Shown here: positions 1 through 9,825 of the stretch, piece after piece | How the letters are laid out: every line of letters begins with the position of its first letter | Numbering within the stretch: the first letter of the stretch is position 1 | Assembly: GCA_023130215.1 (NCBI GenBank) | Contig: JAGMAN010000084.1 | Span: forward strand, 1-12,278 | Origin: a bacterium | GTDB taxonomy: Bacteria; NPL-UPA2; JAGMAN01 | DNA: 12,278 bases | Direction of reading: 5' to 3' | Notes under the pieces: model-generated | The model's database searches: none | What the model was told of the DNA's origin: nothing | What the model saw: only the letters and a program-made list of their open reading frames with translations | Made by a program: the position numbers and the translations under genes

Positions 1-1098
1 AAGGAACAAGGGCAAAGAGAGCCTTTGACCGAAGCTATCTTAGAGGAGGTGGCTAAGCTGAATAGTATTATCTCCCGCTTTCTTGACCGCACTCGCCCGG
101 CGATAGGATACCCGGAGGACCGAAAGTTAGATTACCAGGATATTGTTGGTGAGAGCAAGAGAATGAAAGAGGTATATGAGAGGATAGACAAGATTGCTAA
201 GACCAATAGCACTGTCCTTATCTGTGGGGAAAGCGGCACCGGGAAGGAGTTGGTAGCTCGAGCTATCCACCATAGAGGTCTTCGGCGGGATAATCCCTTT
301 GTGGCTATTGATTGCGGAGCGCTCCCTGAGAGTTTATTGGAGAGTGAACTCTTTGGTCATGTGAAAGGAGCTTTTACCGGAGCTTTTAAGGCGAAAGAAG
401 GACTATTTAAGATAGCTCAGGGAGGAACTATCTTCCTGGATGAGGTAGGAATGACCAGTTCGGCTATCCAGATGAAACTCCTCAGGGTTCTTCAGGAAAG
501 AGAGTTGCGTCCAGTAGGAGGCACAGAGGGAATCAAGGTAGATGTGAGAGTAATTGCCGCTACCAATACAGATTTGGAAGGAGCTGTCCGCCGAGGCGGA
601 TTTCGGAAAGACCTCTTCTATCGCCTTAGTGTTATTCCCCTTCACCTTCCACCCTTAAGAGAAAGGAGGGAAGACATTCCTCTCTTAGTTGAGCATTTTC
701 TGAGGAAATATCAGTCAAGCAATTTACACGAAGGAGTGCTCCCCTTTCGGGGAGCGTCGGTTGACCATCCAACTAAGACAGCTTCCCCGGAAGCGATAAA
801 GATTCTCTGCAGGTACCACTGGCCTGGCAATGTGAGAGAATTGGAGAATGTGGTGGAGAGGGCAGTGGCTCTATCCGATAATACCTCTATTTCTCCCTCA
901 GACCTGCCGGAGGAGATCCAAAAGGGAAGCAAGAAGAAGGCTGAGGGGGGTTCTTTGCGGGATTTGGTGGAGGAGTTTGAGTGTAGTCTTATCAATGAGA
1001 CACTGAGAGAAGTTGATGGAAATAAATATCAAACTGCAAAAAGACTTGGCCTCTCCCGCCAGGACCTTCAGTATAAAGTAAAGAAGTATAGACTGTAG
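1..1098 (+). CDS. Sigma-54-dependent transcriptional activator, AAA+ and Fis-type HTH, 5' end missing
   Basis: The frame is open to base 1, so the gene begins upstream; 365 residues are visible. Residues are numbered from base 1. The AAA+ domain has Walker A GESGTGKE (from residue 76), the sigma-54-contacting GAFTGA loop (123-128), Walker B ending in Asp147-Glu148, the FRKDLFYRL arginine-finger region and the sensor II segment WPGNVRELENV. The C-terminus is a Fis-type helix-turn-helix (QTAKRLGLSRQDLQYKVKKY). Proteins of this family bind upstream sites and use ATP to open RNAP-sigma-54 promoters. The sequence before the AAA+ domain (EEVAKLNSIISRFLDRTRP) does not look like the end of a receiver domain; it resembles HisKA helix 2 of a sensor kinase. 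About 13 extra residues lie between HFLRKY and SPEA (near 242-260). A consensus sigma-54 promoter before the next gene suggests a PilR-like role in pilin control. The family call is certain; the specific target is inferred. Confidence 0.95.
   Translation, partial: KEQGQREPLTEAILEEVAKLNSIISRFLDRTRPAIGYPEDRKLDYQDIVGESKRMKEVYERIDKIAKTNSTVLICGESGTGKELVARAIHHRGLRRDNPFVAIDCGALPESLLESELFGHVKGAFTGAFKAKEGLFKIAQGGTIFLDEVGMTSSAIQMKLLRVLQERELRPVGGTEGIKVDVRVIAATNTDLEGAVRRGGFRKDLFYRLSVIPLHLPPLRERREDIPLLVEHFLRKYQSSNLHEGVLPFRGASVDHPTKTASPEAIKILCRYHWPGNVRELENVVERAVALSDNTSISPSDLPEEIQKGSKKKAEGGSLRDLVEEFECSLINETLREVDGNKYQTAKRLGLSRQDLQYKVKKYRL
733..775. repeat. Palindromic insertion inside the activator coding sequence
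   Basis: Bases 738-755 form a perfect 7-bp hairpin (GCTCCCC, loop TTTC, GGGGAGC), followed by a weaker stem GTTG/CAAC around 760-773. The segment encodes roughly the extra residues GVLPFRGASVDHPTKT that typical NtrC/PilR AAA+ domains lack at this point. By comparison with the usual spacing between HFL and WPGNVR (about 35 residues, here 48), the excess is about 13 codons and keeps frame. It may be a small mobile palindromic element that tolerates insertion in genes. No second copy is in the window. Confidence 0.45.
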
Positions 1099-1315: not shown

Positions 1316-1699
1316 ATGAAGCTAAAGAGAAATGGTTTTACGCTGATTGAGATTATGATCGTGGTGGCTATCATTGCTCTCCTGGCCGCTATTGCCATCC
1401 CCAACTTTGTCAAGTACCGAAATCGGGCCAGGGTAGGTGCCTGTGTAGCCAATAGGACTCAAATTGCCAGGGCAGCAGAGAGCTACATTATGGAGTATAA
1501 CATAGATATGACTGCCTTTGCAGGTTACGGGGCCAGTACCATTGCGGGTTATCTAGCTCCTGCTGATGGGACTGGTTACATTAAGGAGTTCCCGAGTTGC
1601 CCATCCGCGGGTACTTATACCTACACTGAGTCAAATGAGATCTTAACGGTAGCATGTAGCGAGGGCGACCATCCCGACGTTACTGCTGCAGGTGAATAG
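1316..1699 (+). CDS. Type IV major-type prepilin
   Basis: This 127-residue prepilin has a short basic leader (MKLKRNG), a prepilin-peptidase cleavage site after Gly7 and the mature N-terminus FTLIE with Glu5. About 20 hydrophobic residues follow, ending in IAIPNF: the assembly helix of pilins and pseudopilins. The small globular part has cysteines at 43, 95 and 114 (mature 36, 88, 107) and the motif SCPSAGTYTY seen in many short environmental pilins. A strong ribosome site AGGAGGTGA (1301-1309) sets the ATG at 1316. It is the only gene between a sigma-54 promoter and a terminator, which suggests high, regulated expression like pilA. A T2SS pseudopilin GspG is possible by sequence alone, but the nearby pilMNOPQ favours T4P. 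Confidence 0.93.
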   Translation: MKLKRNGFTLIEIMIVVAIIALLAAIAIPNFVKYRNRARVGACVANRTQIARAAESYIMEYNIDMTAFAGYGASTIAGYLAPADGTGYIKEFPSCPSAGTYTYTESNEILTVACSEGDHPDVTAAGE

Positions 1700-1715
1700 T
1701 TACGACTCATAAGCC

Positions 1716-1754
1716 AAAAAAAGGAGGTTATGGAAAGCCATACCTCCTTTTTTT
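1716..1754 (+). terminator. Intrinsic terminator after the pilin gene
   Basis: Seven A's and GGAGGTTATGG (1716-1733) pair with CCATACCTCC and seven T's (1738-1754) around an AAAG loop, with one bulged T. The long stem with a U-run is a classical Rho-independent terminator. The A-run makes it potentially bidirectional. It isolates the pilin transcript from the minor pilin operon. Confidence 0.92.
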
Positions 1755-1791
1755 AATCCCTTCCCATTTCCAAAGGACAGGGACAAGAGAA

Positions 1792-1820
1792 TTGACAAAA
1801 TCAGCTATTTTGGGTATAAT
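1792..1820 (+). promoter_or_regulatory. Sigma-70 promoter of the minor pilin operon
   Basis: TTGACA (1792-1797) and TATAAT (1815-1820) are both perfect consensus hexamers with a 17-bp spacer. A start near 1827 gives a leader of about 16 nt containing AAGGGG and the ATG at 1843. It implies constitutive minor pilin expression, in contrast to the sigma-54 pilin. Confidence 0.88.
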
Positions 1821-1842
1821 TAAGGTGAGAAGGGGAATAGTT

Positions 1843-2271
1843 ATGGAGCGGAAAGGATTTACGCTGATAGAGGTTGTAATGTCCATGTTAATCCTGGGGA
1901 TTGCCTTGATCGGGATACTGGGTGCCTTTGTTATGGGAAAGGCGAATATCGTAAGGGCAAGACATAGACTGGAGGTAGCATGCCTTCTTCAGCAGACGAT
2001 GGAGTACTTACAGGATGTAAGTTATGGAAGCATCACCAACAGTAATTACCCAGAGGAACCTGTCACCATAGATGATGCTGGCACCACGACCACATCCGAT
2101 GATCTTATTGGCACCAGGTTAGCCAGGCCACCATTACCAGTGAGTGCTATCGCCGGCGCGGACGGACTCTATAAATCTGTAACCGTTAAAATCAAATGGA
2201 CAGAACGCTCTTGGGGAGGAGGTGAGCAGGGGGTAAGTGAGGAGTTAATCACTTACTTTCGCAAGGAATGA
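1843..2271 (+). CDS. Minor pilin, PilV type
   Basis: This 142-residue protein begins MERKG and then FTLIEVVMSMLILGIALIGI, a prepilin leader cut after Gly5 with Glu at mature position 5. The pattern FTLIEVVMSMLILGI is typical of PilV/GspI-like minor pilins. The remainder is a small polar domain ending in a beta-rich stretch (KSVTVKIKWTERSW). The ATG at 1843 is preceded by AAGGGG; an upstream in-frame TTG at 1792 lies in the -35 box and cannot be used. It is the first gene of the V-W-X series and overlaps the next by ATGA. Minor pilins form a priming complex at the pilus tip. Confidence 0.85.
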   Translation: MERKGFTLIEVVMSMLILGIALIGILGAFVMGKANIVRARHRLEVACLLQQTMEYLQDVSYGSITNSNYPEEPVTIDDAGTTTTSDDLIGTRLARPPLPVSAIAGADGLYKSVTVKIKWTERSWGGGEQGVSEELITYFRKE

Positions 2272-2765
2272 GAGAGGATGGGGTTACCTTAGTAGAGGTC
2301 TTGGTGGTCTCTGTAATCATAATTATAGTCCTAATAGCTGCCACAACTCTCTATCTTGCGTCTGAGACAGTCTGGCATGAGTCTACTGTGCAGGGTCGCC
2401 TGCAGCAGAATGCCAGTATCGTTATGCAGAAGATGATAAAAGGGGTAGAGAAAGGGGTCTATGGGATCAGGGATTCCAAGACAATAAATTACTACCCGCC
2501 CGCTGAAAATTACGGAGTAGAATTTACCGGAATAGATATACCTACTAACATAAATAGGAGGTTTTATCGGAGCGGCTCCGGAAGCGGGTCAGAAATTAAA
2601 TATTGGGACGGGTCTGCTGAATCCACGCTCGCGGAAGATATAAGCAATTTGACATTTACGAAACACGGTAGCGAAAGGCTCACCATAGACTTTACGATGT
2701 CGCGGACTGTCGGGAATAAGGATGTAAATATAACTCTAAAAACGGATGTTACCATACGGAATTGA
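2268..2765 (+). CDS. Minor pilin, PilW type
   Basis: This 165-residue prepilin has the leader MREDG and mature start VTLVE (Glu5 kept), then a strongly hydrophobic helix VLVVSVIIIIVLIAATTLYL. An amphipathic continuation (QGRLQQNASIVMQKMIKGVEKG) and a C-terminal beta domain follow. This matches PilW/GspJ-like minor pilins in size, order and N-terminal pattern. The leader holds acidic residues (Glu3, Asp4) where most prepilins are basic. The ATG overlaps the stop of the preceding gene, so translation is probably coupled. The C-terminal domain gives no specific hint of ligand. Confidence 0.8.
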   Translation: MREDGVTLVEVLVVSVIIIIVLIAATTLYLASETVWHESTVQGRLQQNASIVMQKMIKGVEKGVYGIRDSKTINYYPPAENYGVEFTGIDIPTNINRRFYRSGSGSGSEIKYWDGSAESTLAEDISNLTFTKHGSERLTIDFTMSRTVGNKDVNITLKTDVTIRN

Positions 2766-2778
2766 GGTGGTGAGAAAA

Positions 2779-4344
2779 GTGAACAAGAAGGGAGTAGTTT
2801 TTATCTCTGTGATGTGCATTATATTGGTCTTAGGCATTGGAATAACCGCCTTTATGACATTTAGCAAGAATGAGATATATACTACCAGGCGGAGGATTGA
2901 ATCGACAAAGGCCTTCTATCTTGCCCAGGCAGGTTTGAATAGAGCACTATATGATTTAAAGGAAGAGTTCGAGGCTGATGATGGCGACGACAACTGGAAT
3001 GACGGCGATATAAATGGCACAAGCGCAGGACCTAATTCAAGTAGCTTCTATCCCCTTTATTCCTCCTCATTAGGCGACGGCACCTATACTGTTAGCCTAA
3101 AGAATGTAGGTACCACAACCGATGAGATCCGGGTAAAATCAAGCGGGACTGTGGGCTCAAGGACCAGGACCATCCAGGCCGATGTAAAAGCAAGTAATAT
3201 CTCTCCCTGGAATAATGCCGTCTTTGCTGGAGCTGGGTCGGGCAGTACTACCGTAACTGGAGGTGTCTTCATCCACGGCTCAGTCCATATCCTGGGCACT
3301 GACCTTGCCTCAACAGACGTTGCTATAGATCTAACTGGAGGAGCGGGGATAGGGAATAATTATGACGGCCTACCAGCAGAGTTATCCTCCAGAATCCCTG
3401 ACTGCCCTACGGTCACCTTTGGAGGTGAAACGGTGGATAGCCTGAGTTCTACGTTCAGGGTCAAAAAAGGCCGGGTGGACCTTGGTGGCGCTTCCGTGAT
3501 AGGCGAACCCGATGTACCAGGTGATGCCCAAAACATTAAAGAGACGATAGATGGCTGTTATGTAGATGTGGATTCATATGATGGAGACAATGCAGCTGGC
3601 ACTTACTATGATGGATTTGGAGGAAATAAGGGAGCAAGCAATGTCAGCTCTGATAATGGAACAACCAATGCCTATGATTTAGGCAAGGCGGCCGCATTTC
3701 CAAGTTTAGACGACGCTTATGATAGCGACTCCTCTTATCGGGAGCACTTGACTGATGAATCACTCTCCATAAGCGAAGATACGCTTTCAAATATAAACTC
3801 GACCACCCCCGACTTCAGTTACTCTGATGCCAAAGGAAGCATTAGTTGGGTTCAAGCCACATCTATCCTTAACATCAGCGGTATCGTGCGTATATACGAC
3901 GGTACAGATGCTGATACAGTTGGTGATTTCTCTCTCGGTGCTAATTTCGATCTCAGTAATAATGTAGACATCGAATATACCGGCAAAGGAACTATCTTTA
4001 CGGATAATATCGAGGTTCATGGTGACTTGCTTTCGAAGTATGATGCAGCAATACGGACATTCCCTGACACACATTGTCTTGGTCTAGTTGCCGATGGAGA
4101 TATGAACCTTGCCAGCCCAGGCGATGCCCAACTTAAGATGACAGGGGCATTCTATGCTGAGGGTACGATCACTAGTGCAATGCAGAATGATATTGCTGGC
4201 ACATTCGTAGCCAATTATTTTAATATGGGATCCCAGGTACCAAAGATTTACTATGTCCCTAGCTTATTGGGCAATCTGCCTCCTGGTATGCCTGAAGCGG
4301 AGTCCAACTGGACTGTTACAACAAGTAACTGGCATGAGATATAA
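2779..4344 (+). CDS. Large minor pilin, PilX type with long beta-rich C-terminal region
   Basis: Starting at GTG 2779 (GAGGTGG at 2764-2770), the 521-residue product opens MNKKGVVFISVMCIILVLG: a short leader, cleavage after Gly5, and Ser instead of Glu at mature position 5, as is usual for PilX/GspK-type pilins. A helix with TKAFYLAQAGLNRALYDL follows, the conserved signature of this class. The remaining roughly 420 residues are acidic, rich in Gly, Ser, Asp and Thr, and look like a beta-solenoid or sandwich (for example GTIFTDNIEVHGDLL near 404-418 and GLVADGDMNL near 437). Related long PilX-like proteins occur in many environmental bacteria and carry a domain of unknown function. It is over twice the length of a classical PilX. 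A tip adhesin role is plausible but inferred. An upstream in-frame ATG at 2746 would give a leader too long and poorly placed. Confidence 0.82.
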   Translation: MNKKGVVFISVMCIILVLGIGITAFMTFSKNEIYTTRRRIESTKAFYLAQAGLNRALYDLKEEFEADDGDDNWNDGDINGTSAGPNSSSFYPLYSSSLGDGTYTVSLKNVGTTTDEIRVKSSGTVGSRTRTIQADVKASNISPWNNAVFAGAGSGSTTVTGGVFIHGSVHILGTDLASTDVAIDLTGGAGIGNNYDGLPAELSSRIPDCPTVTFGGETVDSLSSTFRVKKGRVDLGGASVIGEPDVPGDAQNIKETIDGCYVDVDSYDGDNAAGTYYDGFGGNKGASNVSSDNGTTNAYDLGKAAAFPSLDDAYDSDSSYREHLTDESLSISEDTLSNINSTTPDFSYSDAKGSISWVQATSILNISGIVRIYDGTDADTVGDFSLGANFDLSNNVDIEYTGKGTIFTDNIEVHGDLLSKYDAAIRTFPDTHCLGLVADGDMNLASPGDAQLKMTGAFYAEGTITSAMQNDIAGTFVANYFNMGSQVPKIYYVPSLLGNLPPGMPEAESNWTVTTSNWHEI

Positions 4345-4348
4345 GGAC

Positions 4349-4377
4349 TTGACGATTTACATCGCGTGAGGTGTATT
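4349..4377 (+). promoter_or_regulatory. Possible sigma-70 promoter before the second small pilin
   Basis: TTGACG (4349-4354), a 17-bp spacer and TGTATT (4372-4377) match consensus 5/6 and 4/6. It starts 5 bp after the PilX-type gene stops. A start near 4384 would allow separate expression of the downstream pilin. It is weaker than the promoter at 1792. Confidence 0.5.
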
Positions 4378-4403
4378 TATATAGAGATTGGGAGGTGCCT
4401 GGA

Positions 4404-4757
4404 ATGGAAATTATTAAAAAGAAAGGCTATCTAACAGGATTTACATTAATAGAGGTTATGATAACAGTTATCATAATAGCGATATTGAGCGCTATTGCTA
4501 TTCCCAACTTCTTAAAAGGGGCTAACACGGCAAGGAAGAAGGCTTGCATAGGTAACCTGATGAAGATAGATGCAGCCAAGGAACAATATGCCTTAGATTA
4601 CAATCTTTCCTCTGGCGCTAGCGTAACAGATGCACAGATTAACACTTATATGAAAGGTGGAGCGCCAAGCTGTCCCAGTGACGGTACCTATACATACGGG
4701 AATATAGGTACAGACCCTACCTGTAGCCTGAAAGTCTCAAAGGGGCATGAGCTATAA
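4404..4757 (+). CDS. Second type IV prepilin, paralogue of the pilin at 1316
   Basis: The 117-residue product has a 12-residue leader ending YLTG, mature start FTLIEVMITVIIIAILSAIA with Glu5, and IAIPNF closing the hydrophobic helix. Cysteines at 48, 90 and 107 correspond to mature 36, 78 and 95. The first is at exactly the same mature position as in the pilin at 1316, and SCPSDGTYTY matches SCPSAGTYTY there. The C-terminal part (GTDPTCS then GHEL) is the usual ending of this short pilin family. GGGAGGTG (4390-4396) sets the ATG at 4404; a GTG at 4371 lies in the putative promoter. It closes the minor pilin operon. It may be an alternative major pilin or a core minor pilin; sequence alone does not decide. 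Confidence 0.88.
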   Translation: MEIIKKKGYLTGFTLIEVMITVIIIAILSAIAIPNFLKGANTARKKACIGNLMKIDAAKEQYALDYNLSSGASVTDAQINTYMKGGAPSCPSDGTYTYGNIGTDPTCSLKVSKGHEL

Positions 4758-5558: not shown

Positions 5559-5587
5559 GTGACAGAAGCCTCTAATTGTGATAGGAT
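5559..5587 (+). promoter_or_regulatory. Possible promoter of the pilMNOPQ operon
   Basis: GTGACA (5559-5564) and an extended -10, TGaTAGGAT (core 5582-5587), are separated by 17 bp. The -35 matches 5/6 and the -10 is weaker but helped by the TG extension. Transcription would begin near 5594, just ahead of the pilM ribosome site. Confidence 0.45.
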
Positions 5588-5604
5588 TAAACGAGAAAAG
5601 GACA

Positions 5605-6639
5605 ATGTTTGCTAAATCTAAGCCTAAAAATGTAGTTGGATTAGATATTGGTAGCCACACGGTAAAGGTGGTGGAAATAAAAGAGAGCCCGGAAGGCAAA
5701 GAGCTGGCCGGCTTCGCTTTAACTGAGATAGCACCAGGCTCCTCCGGAGGTGAGGATGCGGGGACGGAGGCTATTAAGAGAGTTATGGGAGAAAGTAAGA
5801 TAGAGACCGACCGGGTAGTGACGGCTGTCTCCGGCCAGTCGGTCATCGTCCGCCACATTGAGCTGCCTAAGATGTCAAGGGAAGAGGCAGAGAATGCCAT
5901 TAAGTATGAAGCTGAACAACATATCCCCTTTGATATAAAGGAAGTCACCTTAGACTTTCAGATACTGGAACATGCATCTGATTCCAAGAAAATGAATGTG
6001 TTGTTGGTAGCCGCGCGCAATGACCTGATTGACAATCACCTTAAACTCATTCAGTCAGCCGGACTTAAGCCAGCAATCATTGATGTTGATTCATTTGCCC
6101 TCGTTAACACCCTTGAGGCTATCAAGGGGGAGAGAAACAAGGAAGAGACAATTGCCCTGGTCAATATGGGGGCCAAGCTGACCAACATAAACATTGTCCG
6201 AGAGGGTGTCTCCTGCTTTACCCGGGATATCTCCCTGGCGGGGAATAATCTCACCGAGGCTATTCAAAACAGTCTCAATTTAGACCCATCTCAGGCTGAG
6301 AAGTTGAAGAAAGAGGAGGGTGAAGCCGGGGGAGATAACGAGGTGTCCCAGGCGCTAAACCCTGTCCTGAAAGACCTGGTTAGTGAGCTGCGTCTCTCTT
6401 TTGACTACTATGAGAACCAGGCTCTGGAAAGGACTACTAACAGAATTCTCTTCAGCGGGGGAAGTGCCCGGCTTAAGAATCTGGATAAGTTCCTGACTCA
6501 GGCTCTGGGCATACCAACGGAGATCTGGAACTTTCTGGATGGATTGGGAATCAATTCTGACATAGATAAAGAAACATTAACTGATGCGGTTCCCCTGTTA
6601 GCTGTGGGGATTGGCTTAGCTTTGAGGAGAGTCTCCTAA
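5605..6639 (+). CDS. pilM: Type IV pilus inner-membrane platform/alignment protein PilM
   Basis: This 344-residue actin-like ATPase fold protein begins MFAKSKPKNVVGLDIGSHTV, the phosphate-1 nucleotide-binding loop typical of PilM. Other family marks are RHIELPKMSREEAENAIKYE, the segment AEQHIPFDI, IDVDSFALVN, and the late LFSGGSARLKNLDKFL phosphate-2/adenosine region. PilM is cytoplasmic, binds nucleotide, and docks onto the N-terminal peptide of PilN to connect the motor ring to the periplasmic alignment complex. Length is normal. Start at ATG 5605 was chosen because homologues start just before the VGLDIG motif; its AAAGGA site is modest, whereas GTG 5578 has none. The stop overlaps pilN by one base. 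Confidence 0.96.
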   Translation: MFAKSKPKNVVGLDIGSHTVKVVEIKESPEGKELAGFALTEIAPGSSGGEDAGTEAIKRVMGESKIETDRVVTAVSGQSVIVRHIELPKMSREEAENAIKYEAEQHIPFDIKEVTLDFQILEHASDSKKMNVLLVAARNDLIDNHLKLIQSAGLKPAIIDVDSFALVNTLEAIKGERNKEETIALVNMGAKLTNINIVREGVSCFTRDISLAGNNLTEAIQNSLNLDPSQAEKLKKEEGEAGGDNEVSQALNPVLKDLVSELRLSFDYYENQALERTTNRILFSGGSARLKNLDKFLTQALGIPTEIWNFLDGLGINSDIDKETLTDAVPLLAVGIGLALRRVS

Positions 6640-7268
6640 TGATTGAAATAAACCTCCTTCCGGTTTCCCTGAGAGAGAAAAGGAAAAGGGTGGAACTGCC
6701 CCCAACTACATTTCTACTGGTAGGTGGCGGAGTATTAACTCTCCTCCTCCTCGCCTGCCTCGTTTTTGCCACAAGCACACATCTGAAGAGGCGAAATCTC
6801 CAAAAGGCAGAGGAGCAACTTAGAAGCTTACAGCCAGAGAGCGACAGGATTGCCCAACTCAAGAAGGAAAAACAGAAGTTGGGGAAGAAAATGGCTATTA
6901 TTGAACAGTTAGTAGATAATAGAGTACTCTGGGCTCGCAAGCTTAACGAGCTGAGTAACATCATCCCCCGTCAGGTCTGGATAACCTCTATCTTCGTAGA
7001 GGAGAGGTCGCTGGGGAAGAGTTCAAGTGAGGAGAAGGCCAAGAGGGAAAAATTCTTAGCTATCAAGGGGATAGCTATCTCTAAAGGCAAAGAAGAGACA
7101 GGGGAGTTGAAGTTGGTAGGCGATTTTATGGACAGGATAAGAAATGATAGCTCTTTCTGTGCCGATTTCCTTAGTGTTGAACAATGTGGCTCCATCCGCC
7201 GGGACAGGATGGGCGGTTCAGAGATAATGCACTTTGAGCTAAGTTGTCAGTTTAATGAGGGAAAATGA
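6639..7268 (+). CDS. pilN: Type IV pilus assembly protein PilN
   Basis: The 209-residue protein begins MIEINLLP, the conserved PilM-binding peptide of PilN. One transmembrane helix follows (about residues 23-44), then a coiled coil (about 48-92) and a periplasmic ferredoxin-like domain containing NIIPRQVWITSI. PilN pairs with PilO in the inner membrane and with PilM in the cytoplasm. TAATG coupling links it to pilM and ATGA coupling to pilO. The family signature and gene order make the call secure. Confidence 0.94.
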   Translation: MIEINLLPVSLREKRKRVELPPTTFLLVGGGVLTLLLLACLVFATSTHLKRRNLQKAEEQLRSLQPESDRIAQLKKEKQKLGKKMAIIEQLVDNRVLWARKLNELSNIIPRQVWITSIFVEERSLGKSSSEEKAKREKFLAIKGIAISKGKEETGELKLVGDFMDRIRNDSSFCADFLSVEQCGSIRRDRMGGSEIMHFELSCQFNEGK

Positions 7269-7816
7269 AGTTTGATTTGGCTGGATTAGATAAGAAGCAG
7301 ATGGCTGGTTTCGCCGTCGCATACATAATAGTAGCGGTGCTCCTCTCTTTCCTGATAAAGAGTAGAGTGGTTAGCTGGAGGACCACCTCAGTAGAACTCA
7401 AGGAGAAGAGAGCGGCGGTGGAAGAAGCCAAGGGGTTGATAAAGGATGAGGAGAAATATCGGCAGGAAATTGTTCAGATGGAAAGACGAATAAAGAGGTA
7501 TGAGGATAAGCTTCCTGAGCGAAGAGAGGTTCCTAAACTATTTAGAGAGTTAGATGAGATAGCTGAACATTCGCAGATTAAGATCATCTCGGTTGGGTCA
7601 GAAGAATCTGAGGAGAGCCAGCACTACCGCCGTTACTGGAGGAGCTTGGACCTGGAGGGTGGATATCACGAATTGGGTCGCTTTATTAATAAGCTGGAGA
7701 GCTCGGGTCGCTTTATCAAAGTGGATGATATCCAGGTAAGTTCTAATCCTGAAAATGTGCTCAAGCATAATATAAAATTGACAGTTAGCACCTTTGTCTC
7801 CAGGGGGGCAATATGA
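7265..7816 (+). CDS. pilO: Type IV pilus assembly protein PilO
   Basis: This 183-residue bitopic protein has a short cytoplasmic N-terminus, a transmembrane helix around residues 13-32, a periplasmic coiled coil (about 40-85, rich in Glu, Lys and Arg, ending KLPERREVPKLFRELDEIA) and a ferredoxin-like domain with YHELGRFINKLESSGRFIKV, the best-kept PilO motif. It forms a heterodimer with PilN and contacts PilP. It overlaps both pilN and pilP by ATGA. Confidence 0.94.
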   Translation: MKFDLAGLDKKQMAGFAVAYIIVAVLLSFLIKSRVVSWRTTSVELKEKRAAVEEAKGLIKDEEKYRQEIVQMERRIKRYEDKLPERREVPKLFRELDEIAEHSQIKIISVGSEESEESQHYRRYWRSLDLEGGYHELGRFINKLESSGRFIKVDDIQVSSNPENVLKHNIKLTVSTFVSRGAI

Positions 7817-8208
7817 CAAAATGTTGCGCTCTATGCTTTCTGATATTTTCCCTTATGCTTAGCGGGTTGAGTTGTGGGAGAAAAGGGGAACTCCCCCAGG
7901 AAGCCAAGGAAAAGAAGAAAATGGCGAAGAAGGTTGAGTTTGAAATACCTGCTACCAGGCCATTTATTTATGACAGTCAGGGAAAGCGGGACCCCCTCGT
8001 TCCCCTGGCCGGGCTGGAGGAGGGACCGAAGTTGGCCTGGCTTTCCCTGGAGGGTATATTTTGGGACCCAGCGTCTCCCATGGCTATCATAAATGATAAG
8101 ATTGTGGGTGAGGGAGATAAGATTGAGGGTGCTGAGGTAGTAGAGATTAAAGAAGACCGGGTGATTTTACGCTATGGGGAGGAGCAATCCATCCTCAGGC
8201 TAAAGTAA
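7813..8208 (+). CDS. pilP: Type IV pilus inner-membrane lipoprotein PilP
   Basis: The 131-residue product has an N-terminal hydrophobic signal ending LSGLSC with Cys21 as likely lipidated residue. A lysine-rich linker follows, then a C-terminal beta domain opening KRDPLVPLAG and containing LSLEGIFWDPASPMAIINDKIVGEGD, the PilP/GspC-type homology region. PilP bridges PilN/PilO to the periplasmic N domains of PilQ. The lipobox is imperfect (Gly at -3, Leu at -2), so lipidation is probable rather than certain. It starts within the last codons of pilO and ends 9 bp before pilQ. Confidence 0.9.
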   Translation: MTKCCALCFLIFSLMLSGLSCGRKGELPQEAKEKKKMAKKVEFEIPATRPFIYDSQGKRDPLVPLAGLEEGPKLAWLSLEGIFWDPASPMAIINDKIVGEGDKIEGAEVVEIKEDRVILRYGEEQSILRLK

Positions 8209-8217
8209 GGAGAAAAA

Positions 8218-9825
8218 ATGGTCAATAGCAAACGGCTCGTTGTCGGTAGAGGCATAGCTGTAGTTATCTTGTTTGGACTGGTTAGTTGTTGTTTATCGTT
8301 GCCCTGGTGGATTAACCGGGCTTTCGGGCAGGAGGTAGTGGGGGAGAAAAAATACTCAACTGGAGTTAAAGAAGAAGCTCTCATTAGCATCAACATCAAG
8401 GATGCTGATATCAAGAATGTCCTTCGCCTCATAGCTACCAGTGCTAATATTAATATCATTCCCGGTCCTGAGGTGCAGGGATCGGTATCGGTTCGCATCA
8501 AGGATGTTCCCTGGGAAACGGCCCTGGCCACAATCCTCAAAACCTACGGCTTCGCCTATGTGAGGGAGGAGAATATTATCAGAGTAACTACCGTTGGGAA
8601 ATTAAAGGAAGAAGATTTGCAGACCAAGACCTACTTTCTCAATTTCGCTACCGCGTCCACTATCCAGGAATCGGTAAAAGGGATTCTCTCCGAGCGGGGA
8701 AAGATAAAAACGGATGAAAGAACGAATGCTTTAATCATCACCGATATCCCCAGTAATCTGACGAAGATAGAGGAGATAATGAAGGAACTGGATGCGGAGA
8801 CGGTGCAGGTGATGATCGAGGCCAGGATAATAGAGACAAAAATTGAGCCAACAGATAAACTGGGTATAAATTGGGACATTGTTGGAACGGCTGCCGGGGC
8901 AAGGCGTGCTCTGACCTTTCCCTTTGAGACGAAGGAGGAGAGCAAATGGCTACCCGGTGAGATTCCTGCGCCAAGTGGCACTGCCGCTGATACTACTGCG
9001 GCTGGTGAATTTAGATTTGGATATTTAGATGCTACCGGCCTCAAGGCTGTATTACAGCTATTGAACTCAAAGACGGATACAAGGATACTCTCCCATCCCA
9101 GGATTACTACCCTGAACAATCAGAAAGCGATGATTAATGTGGGTGATAAATACCCTATTCCACAATACACCTACAACGCGGAGGTAGGTTACTGGGAAAT
9201 CACCGATTTTGAGTATAAGGACCTTGGGATAAAGCTAACTGTAACTCCCAATGTGAATAAGCAGGGCTATGTCTCACTTAAAATTCATCCAGAGATAAAC
9301 GAGTGGAGCATAACTGATGTTGTTACTTTTGCTCTCGGTGGTCAGGGAAGTGTTGACATACCCAGATACAGCACACGAGAGGCAGAGACCCAGGTTATGG
9401 TCAAAGATGGCGATACATTAGTAATTGGAGGATTACTGAAGGAGAAGAGAGGGGAAACAAGCAAGAAGATCCCTCTGTTAGGAGATATCCCCTTCTTGGG
9501 ATATTTCTTCGGCGGCAAGACTGTAACAGGCATCACCTTAGACCTTCTCATTTTCGTTACCCCACACGTGGTCAAAGTTGGCGAAATGGCTGAAGGCGAC
9601 CGGCTGAGGCTGATAAAGTCAGAGTTTCCGGAAAGAAGAAGAATGGAGGAAGTTAAGAAAGAGGTGATTAAGGGCATTTACCAGGCGGGCAAGAGCTACT
9701 GCCGGGAAAGGAAATATGAGGAAGCTATTGAGCAATTCAATCGTGTTCTGGAACTGGAGCCCACCCACCGCGGTGCCCGCAAGTATCTGCAAAGAGCAGA
9801 AAGACGCCTGGAGAGGAGAAAATAG
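8218..9825 (+). CDS. pilQ: Type IV pilus secretin PilQ with C-terminal TPR
   Basis: This 535-residue outer-membrane secretin forms the pilus exit channel. It has a signal peptide (about 1-37, cleavage near AFG-QE), an STN/N0 domain (about 55-125, INIKDADIKNVLRLIA), one N1 secretin repeat (about 138-200, with KTDERTNALIITDIP), and the secretin core with VQVMIEARIIE, ILSHPRITTLNNQKA and the closing VIGGLLKEK, PLLGDIPFLGYFF and LLIFVTPHVV motifs. Short for PilQ, it lacks the AMIN domains that bind peptidoglycan in proteobacterial PilQ. After the secretin core a linker leads to a TPR-like unit (about 487-520; CRERKYEEAIEQFNRVLELEP) and a basic helix. AAGGAG precedes the ATG. It closes the pilMNOPQ operon. 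Confidence 0.95.
   Translation: MVNSKRLVVGRGIAVVILFGLVSCCLSLPWWINRAFGQEVVGEKKYSTGVKEEALISINIKDADIKNVLRLIATSANINIIPGPEVQGSVSVRIKDVPWETALATILKTYGFAYVREENIIRVTTVGKLKEEDLQTKTYFLNFATASTIQESVKGILSERGKIKTDERTNALIITDIPSNLTKIEEIMKELDAETVQVMIEARIIETKIEPTDKLGINWDIVGTAAGARRALTFPFETKEESKWLPGEIPAPSGTAADTTAAGEFRFGYLDATGLKAVLQLLNSKTDTRILSHPRITTLNNQKAMINVGDKYPIPQYTYNAEVGYWEITDFEYKDLGIKLTVTPNVNKQGYVSLKIHPEINEWSITDVVTFALGGQGSVDIPRYSTREAETQVMVKDGDTLVIGGLLKEKRGETSKKIPLLGDIPFLGYFFGGKTVTGITLDLLIFVTPHVVKVGEMAEGDRLRLIKSEFPERRRMEEVKKEVIKGIYQAGKSYCRERKYEEAIEQFNRVLELEPTHRGARKYLQRAERRLERRK

Follow-up and report, generated by a model that had tools for sequence, protein, structure and literature searches.

The activator gene and its inserted segment

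The window, which here means the whole stretch of 12,278 nucleotides that was analyzed, is contig C120 of a draft genome of 1.01 Mb (G000) from a bacterium of the NPL-UPA2 lineage. It starts within a gene for a sigma-54 activator, the 5' part of which lies on another contig (C119), and the encoded protein is a PAS/HisKA-like activator of the NtrC type with Sigma54_activat, AAA lid and HTH_8 domains. The orthologue in a sister genome (G001) is a single frame of 757 amino acids with 84% identity. Pilin-like genes with prepilin N-terminal motifs, together with PilM/PilN/PilO-like and secretin-like genes, occupy positions 1316-4757 and 5578-9825 of the window; as recognized from their sequences, they probably constitute a type IV pilus/type II secretion cluster adjoining the activator. 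The features of the activator gene that concern the insert are as follows.

1..1098, + strand: 3' part (365 codons) of the sigma-54 activator gene, based on the ORF and domain profiles
1..4, + strand: AAGG, probable right-hand target flank of another copy, based on the end of C119 and the target motif
726..726, + strand: target base A at position -1 (A in 61 of 66 copies)
727..756, + strand: 30-bp mobile unit CACGAAGGAGTGCTCCCCTTTCGGGGAGCG, in frame, encoding HEGVLPFRGA (residues 243-252), based on comparison with other copies
727..740, + strand: family-wide 5' tag CACGAAGGAGTGCT (CACG[T/A]A[A/G]GAGTGCT), common to the family copies
738..755, + strand: hairpin centre GCTCCCC-TTTC-GGGGAGC, in place of the GCTGCAAGC of the 21-bp form, based on the pattern and on folding
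757..783, + strand: rest of the loop, SVDHPTKTA, outside the unit; it holds a weak second stem and is present in G001 too

The perfect GCTCCCC/GGGGAGC hairpin described in the initial annotation of this DNA is present at 738-755, with a 7-bp stem and a TTTC loop. Its minimum free energy as DNA is -8.4 kcal/mol (z -2.5), 5 of 200 shuffled sequences doing at least as well, and a pattern search found the exact pattern once in the window's genome. By itself the hairpin would be marginal evidence; what carries the case is the existence of a repeat family and of empty sites. As had been stated, both strands are open across the segment, the 365-aa ORF crossing it in the sense direction and an ORF at 711-995 in the antisense direction. 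The loop is 13 residues longer than in ZraR (PDB 1ojl), which agrees with the original estimate of about 13. In an AlphaFold2 model of the window protein, residues 243-255 have pLDDT values below 50 and lie between helices 223-243 and 263-271. The element-encoded residues 243-252 coincide with this low-confidence, presumably exposed loop, and the model is consistent with the surface-loop position that had been proposed.

Among 23 aligned sigma-54 activators, the window protein and the G001 orthologue were the only two with the insert, the 21 others lacking it. The initial annotation had proposed checking orthologous activators for presence or absence at this site; distant ones do lack the insert, but no close orthologue without the copy was found, G001 being filled and the second sister genome (G002, 69% complete) having no close orthologue. 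The window site thus has no empty allele.

Definition of the 30-bp unit

When relatives were searched with an 86-base query, matching DNA was found in both sister genomes: the copies in lpxC-fabZ and, in G001, the nested copy. The lpxC-fabZ genes of G001 and G002 carry a 30-bp unit in the linker between the LpxC (4-272) and FabA-like (304-427) Pfam domains. In G000 the same gene is an empty site, shorter by exactly 30 bp (AGATT^AAGGAGG vs AGATT-CACGAAAAAGTGCTCCCCTTTCAGGGAGCG-AAGGAGG), and this exact difference defines the unit as 30 bp, corresponding to 727-756 in the window. The initial annotation had suggested looking in other genes for the same peptide, and HEKVLPFQGA of LpxC-FabZ, encoded in the same frame as the window copy, is close to it. 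The element itself had been placed at 733-775; the insert is real, but these boundaries were wrong, and the unit comprises ten codons. The weak second stem (about 757-775), formerly counted as part of the element, lies outside the unit and was rejected as a component, having no copies elsewhere.

An ordinary, slightly long loop with a chance palindrome in its DNA would require no mobile element. The moderately unusual hairpin and its single exact occurrence in the genome are compatible with this view, and unrelated short inserts are present at this loop in the activators L005, L011 and L022. A chance loop does not account, however, for the 30-bp unit of lpxC-fabZ, which two sister species carry in the same frame and the third precisely lacks, nor for a tag with 63 occurrences in the genus and practically none outside it. 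This reading is already refuted and is hardly credible.

Copy number, forms and distribution

The commonest form of the repeat is 21 bp long (CACGTAAGAGTGCTGCAAGCG). The genus contains 66 copies (10 in G000, 31 in G001 and 25 in G002; tag matches plus the lpxC-fabZ and pseudopilin copies), with effectively none in ten more distant genomes; copies common to orthologues are not independent, so that these counts overstate the number of events. With one mismatch allowed, the 5' tag ACACGHARGAGTGCT matched 10, 30 and 23 times in G000, G001 and G002, respectively, once outside the genus (G006) and not at all in nine other genomes, and the reversed-pattern control gave no match in the genus. A 22-mer around the 21-bp form gave 36 matches, all in G000-G002, with none in seven more distant genomes and none for the reversed control. 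The searches with CACGWARGAGTGCTGCAAGCG covered 13 genomes and viral contigs, and in the wider GTDB only the 20-base core of the hairpin was searched for. No match of the unit was found in the viral contigs. A 20-mer match in Geomonas has only the hairpin in common and was considered a chance match; the hits in G008:C2 and G006:C122 were likewise attributed to chance. Among the genomes searched, the family is confined to one NPL-UPA2 genus. The suggestion that it might be an undescribed family of this lineage is supported. No repeat of NPL-UPA2 was found in the literature searched; the encoded peptide TRKSAASE was not found there either. The opposite picture, a single segment carried by all orthologues as a loop, is contradicted by the 66 copies, by presence/absence differences of exactly 21 or 30 bp and by the distant activators without insert.

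All three genomes of the genus are draft MAGs, and the sister genomes are deposited in GenBank as candidate division NPL-UPA2 and as 'Nitrospirota' MAG CSMAG_2268. The fragmentation of these MAGs, and the end of contig C119 within a copy, might raise the suspicion of an assembly or binning artefact. The separately deposited assemblies nevertheless agree on the sites (lpxC-fabZ, ychF, fusA and coaE), with the copies in frame and at the target motif, and the probability of an artefact is practically negligible.

The forms vary at the centre: the 21-bp form has GCTGCAAGC there and the window copy GCTCCCC..GGGGAGC, and others hold longer palindromic filler, with a total length of up to 105 bp. A covariance model recovered the hairpin subfamily and ranked the 21-bp form low; it was the weak matches that led to the latter. 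The 21-bp form folds no better than shuffled sequences (z +0.7), and a clear stem exists only in the 30-bp and nested forms, so the word 'palindromic' fits only the longer forms. The likeness to the in-frame palindromic elements of Rickettsia (RPEs) drawn in the initial annotation stands as regards an in-frame mobile repeat, with the caveat that the commonest form is hardly palindromic. Hairpin relatives (CACTAAAGTGCTCCCCAAAGGGAGTGAA), sometimes in tandem, were also observed between genes (G001:C72:3558-3655, G001:C68:3525, G002:C109:2900 and G002:C40:101-152; L112, L110, L119 and L109), where they lie within a longer MITE-like unit of the same genus with ends like AGTATAGGAA...TTCCTATACAGT.

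Empty sites and insertion target

Orthologues were found by concatenated query and aligned both as protein and as DNA. Within the genus, filled and empty alleles that differ by exactly 21 bp were found for mlaF, coaE (site 2), rpoD, murC, thrC, rplO, a histidine kinase gene and a second NtrC-like activator gene, the last at the same loop as in the window gene. Comparison with the outgroup G003 revealed the same exact difference in fusA, mfd, rmlD and the gene for L25; the outgroup has no units, so these differences are gains. For coaE site 1 and dTMP kinase, a difference of seven residues was detected at the protein level. Filled and empty sites differ by the unit alone, and the junctions have no target duplication. 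The units are thus mobile, as judged by presence and absence, and they insert precisely.

The insertion target is A^AARG, with A at -1 in 61 of 66 copies, A at +2 in 52 of 65 and G at +4 in 53 of 65. It is present in the empty alleles of rpoD (TTAA^AAGG), the kinase gene (TTTA^AAGA), rplO (ATCA^AAGG) and, on the other strand, thrC (TTTA^GAGG). Two insertion sites exist in coaE, with three occupancy patterns in the three species (G001:C128:2475-2981, G000:C6:506-1066, G002:C5:11312-11761). Of the three species, only G002 has site 1 empty; LpxC-FabZ identity suggests that G001 and G002 are closer to each other (92% vs 88%), and this pattern then needs re-insertion or precise loss.

The target motif is also recognizable where the window begins. 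The upstream half of the activator gene lies on C119, whose last bases are ...GTTTTA-CACGAAGGAGTGCTG, and the first bases of the window, AAGGAACAAGG, are the right target flank expected for a copy. The break between the two contigs appears to fall within another copy of the element, on which the assembly would have broken, and the predicted junction is TTTTA-CACGAAGGAGTGCTGCAAGCG (or a longer form)-AAGGAAC.

Insertion in genes and in frame

The element does not avoid genes: 60 of the 66 copies (91%) lie within ORFs of at least 120 codons, compared with 88% of random 21-mers. All 57 coding copies of resolved length are multiples of three, 31 being 21 bp and 26 of other lengths (range, 21-105 bp). 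The usual tag reads TAA in one sense phase, and each of the five copies in that phase has the stop-free A variant, which is present in 16 of the 60 coding copies (hypergeometric p about 8e-4, the copies not all being independent). Both orientations occur, with 51 sense and 9 antisense coding copies. This bias results mostly from target availability, given that AAARG is itself in sense excess in the window's genes (58:21, sense:antisense).

The hosts were checked by NCBIfam/Pfam profiles and comprise rpoD, fusA (EF-G), rplO (L15), the L25 gene, aspS, coaE, fabD, murG, murC, ychF, thrC, mfd, the genes for dTMP kinase, trigger factor, asparagine synthase and PSP1, moeA, mnmE, mlaF, rmlD and lpxC-fabZ; TRKSAASE, HVRVLQA and HEGVLPF are among the peptides encoded. 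The fabD gene of G001 (G001:C76, L167:895-1956) has two inserts, one of which is in antisense orientation at the N-terminus, beside the first conserved strand (MVAF-ACLRHCLRLCSTLTC-LFPGQGAQ).

Essential and conserved hosts such as fusA, rpoD, rplO, coaE and murC, and an insert so near the first strand of FabD (MVAF-insert-LFPGQG), would be understandable if the inserts were taken out of the transcript or passed over by the ribosome, as with mitochondrial byp elements, and were thus missing from the protein. Under such a scheme frame and stops need not matter, yet all 57 resolved coding copies are multiples of three and the phase that reads TAA is used with the A variant only; the best-characterized sites, moreover, are loops or linkers. 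Removal or skipping is highly improbable. The inserts are probably translated, and the peptide would be retained in the protein and near-neutral in loops.

Probable later growth of the units

In the G001 orthologue of the window activator, the unit occupies the equivalent site and a second 30-bp copy is nested inside it in reverse orientation, also at A^AGG, the arrangement being a 20-bp perfect inverted repeat. Units at other sites differ in length between species. In ychF, the G001 unit exceeds the short one of G000 and G002 by 51 bp, and the units of murG and coaE site 1 have a G000-specific filler (GTCCACAGGACGCCCTTTAGGGC type) vs another filler (CAGCCGAAGGCAGTGCCG type) or none in G001/G002. 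The simplest reading of these sequence differences is nested insertion into existing units.

The direction of change might also be the reverse, the long forms being original and the 21-bp units being deletion derivatives or scars of a larger transposon with the ends CACGTAAGAGTGCTGCA and GGCAAGCG. The long-form filler is flanked by GCA repeats, from which slippage would yield exactly the 21-bp form; ychF has long and short forms at one site, and the MoeA of G002 has a truncated unit. Against this order of events, ychF is short in two of the three species, the outlying G000 included, the filler at shared sites (murG, coaE site 1) is species-specific, as expected of later nested insertion, and 31 coding copies at many independent sites are exactly 21 bp. 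Deletion from a larger element is unlikely, although it retains some weight.

Two further observations concern individual genes. The truncated unit in moeA of G002 (G002:C42:2228-2518, L300) is CACGTAAGAGTG; G001 has a 72-bp form there and G000 none, and the G002 unit is possibly a decaying copy. In G002, mnmE and a V-ATPase subunit I-like gene (G002:C2:3091-3453, L303; G002:C31:2779-3183, L298) have in-frame, filler-type inserts without the 5' tag, with the peptides QPKAMPK... and GSADSQAVPLG, and filler palindromes may invade genes by themselves.

Proposed mechanism

It is very probable that the segment in the window is a copy of a very short interspersed mobile family that inserts at A^AARG, adds loops in frame and is later enlarged by nesting. 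In the proposed sequence of events, the elements would insert without target duplication, in genes as readily as elsewhere, and would persist in genes because most forms are stop-free in the frames used and have a length of 3n. Every insertion would add 7 (21 bp), 10 (30 bp) or more residues to a tolerant loop or linker, and nested palindromic filler, varying from species to species, would then enlarge existing units where they stand. Since insertion is precise and without target duplication, one may guess at a transposase of the single-strand (HUH/Y1) type, or at template switching in the course of replication, as the cause of movement.

A candidate, one Y1_Tnp gene of the RAYT/IS200-like type encoding 234 amino acids, was found in G001. 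No elements were found beside this gene, no Y1_Tnp was found in G000 or G002 (69% complete), and Y1_Tnp genes are also present in G003-G006, which are free of the element; the Y1 transposase was therefore not supported as the mobilizer. These observations weigh equally on the possibility that the repeats are a REP family moved by a REP-associated Y1 transposase (RAYT). A short tagged repeat, the hairpin in longer forms, the lack of target duplication and the Y1_Tnp gene of G001 would fit such a family, and intragenic REPs are known (PMC3733652). The tag is neither the GTAG nor the CGTC terminal tag, however, and genes are not avoided, which together with the distribution of Y1_Tnp makes a RAYT-driven REP family doubtful.

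Significance

Most known elements that invade coding sequences come from the Rickettsiales, other groups contributing isolated cases, and their mode of spread is a standing question. The present repeats form a family of their own, with exactly matching filled and empty alleles of orthologous essential genes, a clear target motif, growth by nesting and a form as small as 21 bp, a combination that makes both the insertion mechanism and the tolerance of proteins testable. A bolder view, which we put forward tentatively and do not prefer, is that a 21-bp unit inserting precisely at A^AARG without duplication can add seven residues to almost any protein, and that its sites become docking points for nested, loop-enlarging palindromes, by which the core proteome of one uncultured genus is being rewritten. 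To our knowledge, few mobile DNA units as small as 21 bp have been recorded. For annotators, TRKSAASE, HVRVLQA and HEGVLPF in these proteins are to be regarded as inserts rather than conserved features, and contigs may break at copies of the element.

Comparison with known systems

REPs of the GTAG and CGTC super-families include intragenic cases in Opitutus terrae and Rickettsia conorii (PMC3733652). Like REPs, the present elements are repeats of 20-40 bp that bear a tag at one end, have a hairpin in their longer forms and occur at times within ORFs and also in clusters (PMC3733652). REPs are mainly intergenic with a GTAG/CGTC tag, whereas here the tag is CACG[T/A]A[A/G]GAGTGCT and 91% of copies are in ORFs; the unit ends are CACG...AGCG, and the GCGTC seen in the window derives from the target flank, not from a REP tag. 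Bacterial MITEs (ERIC, Correia/NEMIS, RUP) are likewise small and non-autonomous and sometimes form in-frame ORF fusions (PMC2229807), but they are about 100-200 bp long and most have terminal inverted repeats and target duplications, neither of which is found in the coding unit. The byp elements are undecoded, with frame and stops irrelevant, in contrast to the 3n lengths and the A-variant-only phase found here. Palindromic repeats with coding potential were reported in Methanocaldococcus jannaschii (Suyama et al. 2005, as cited in PMC2229807); as far as that citation describes them, they resemble the present elements in being open-frame repeat DNA fused into protein genes outside the Rickettsiales, although their host is an archaeon.

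The closest parallel is provided by RPEs and the Wolbachia palindromic elements, which are small in-frame repeats in many unrelated, often essential genes and in intergenic regions; RPE peptides occupy exposed loops, and RPEs persist in orthologues (PMC2229807, PMC3767692, PMC10969869). The genic insertions described here are similarly in frame and stop-free (60/66 in ORFs of at least 120 aa, 57/57 lengths of 3n), and the encoded segment probably lies at the protein surface, as indicated by the modeled loop of the window protein and the interdomain linker of LpxC-FabZ. RPEs, however, are 100-150 bp with long stems, while the main form here is 21 bp and barely structured; the hosts belong to different phyla (Rickettsiales vs NPL-UPA2), the peptide differs as well, and exact empty sites and the short target motif A^AARG are seen here. 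Because size, sequence, host and target all differ, the element would not be a member of the RPEs, with which it was compared by description, although it appears to work in the same way.
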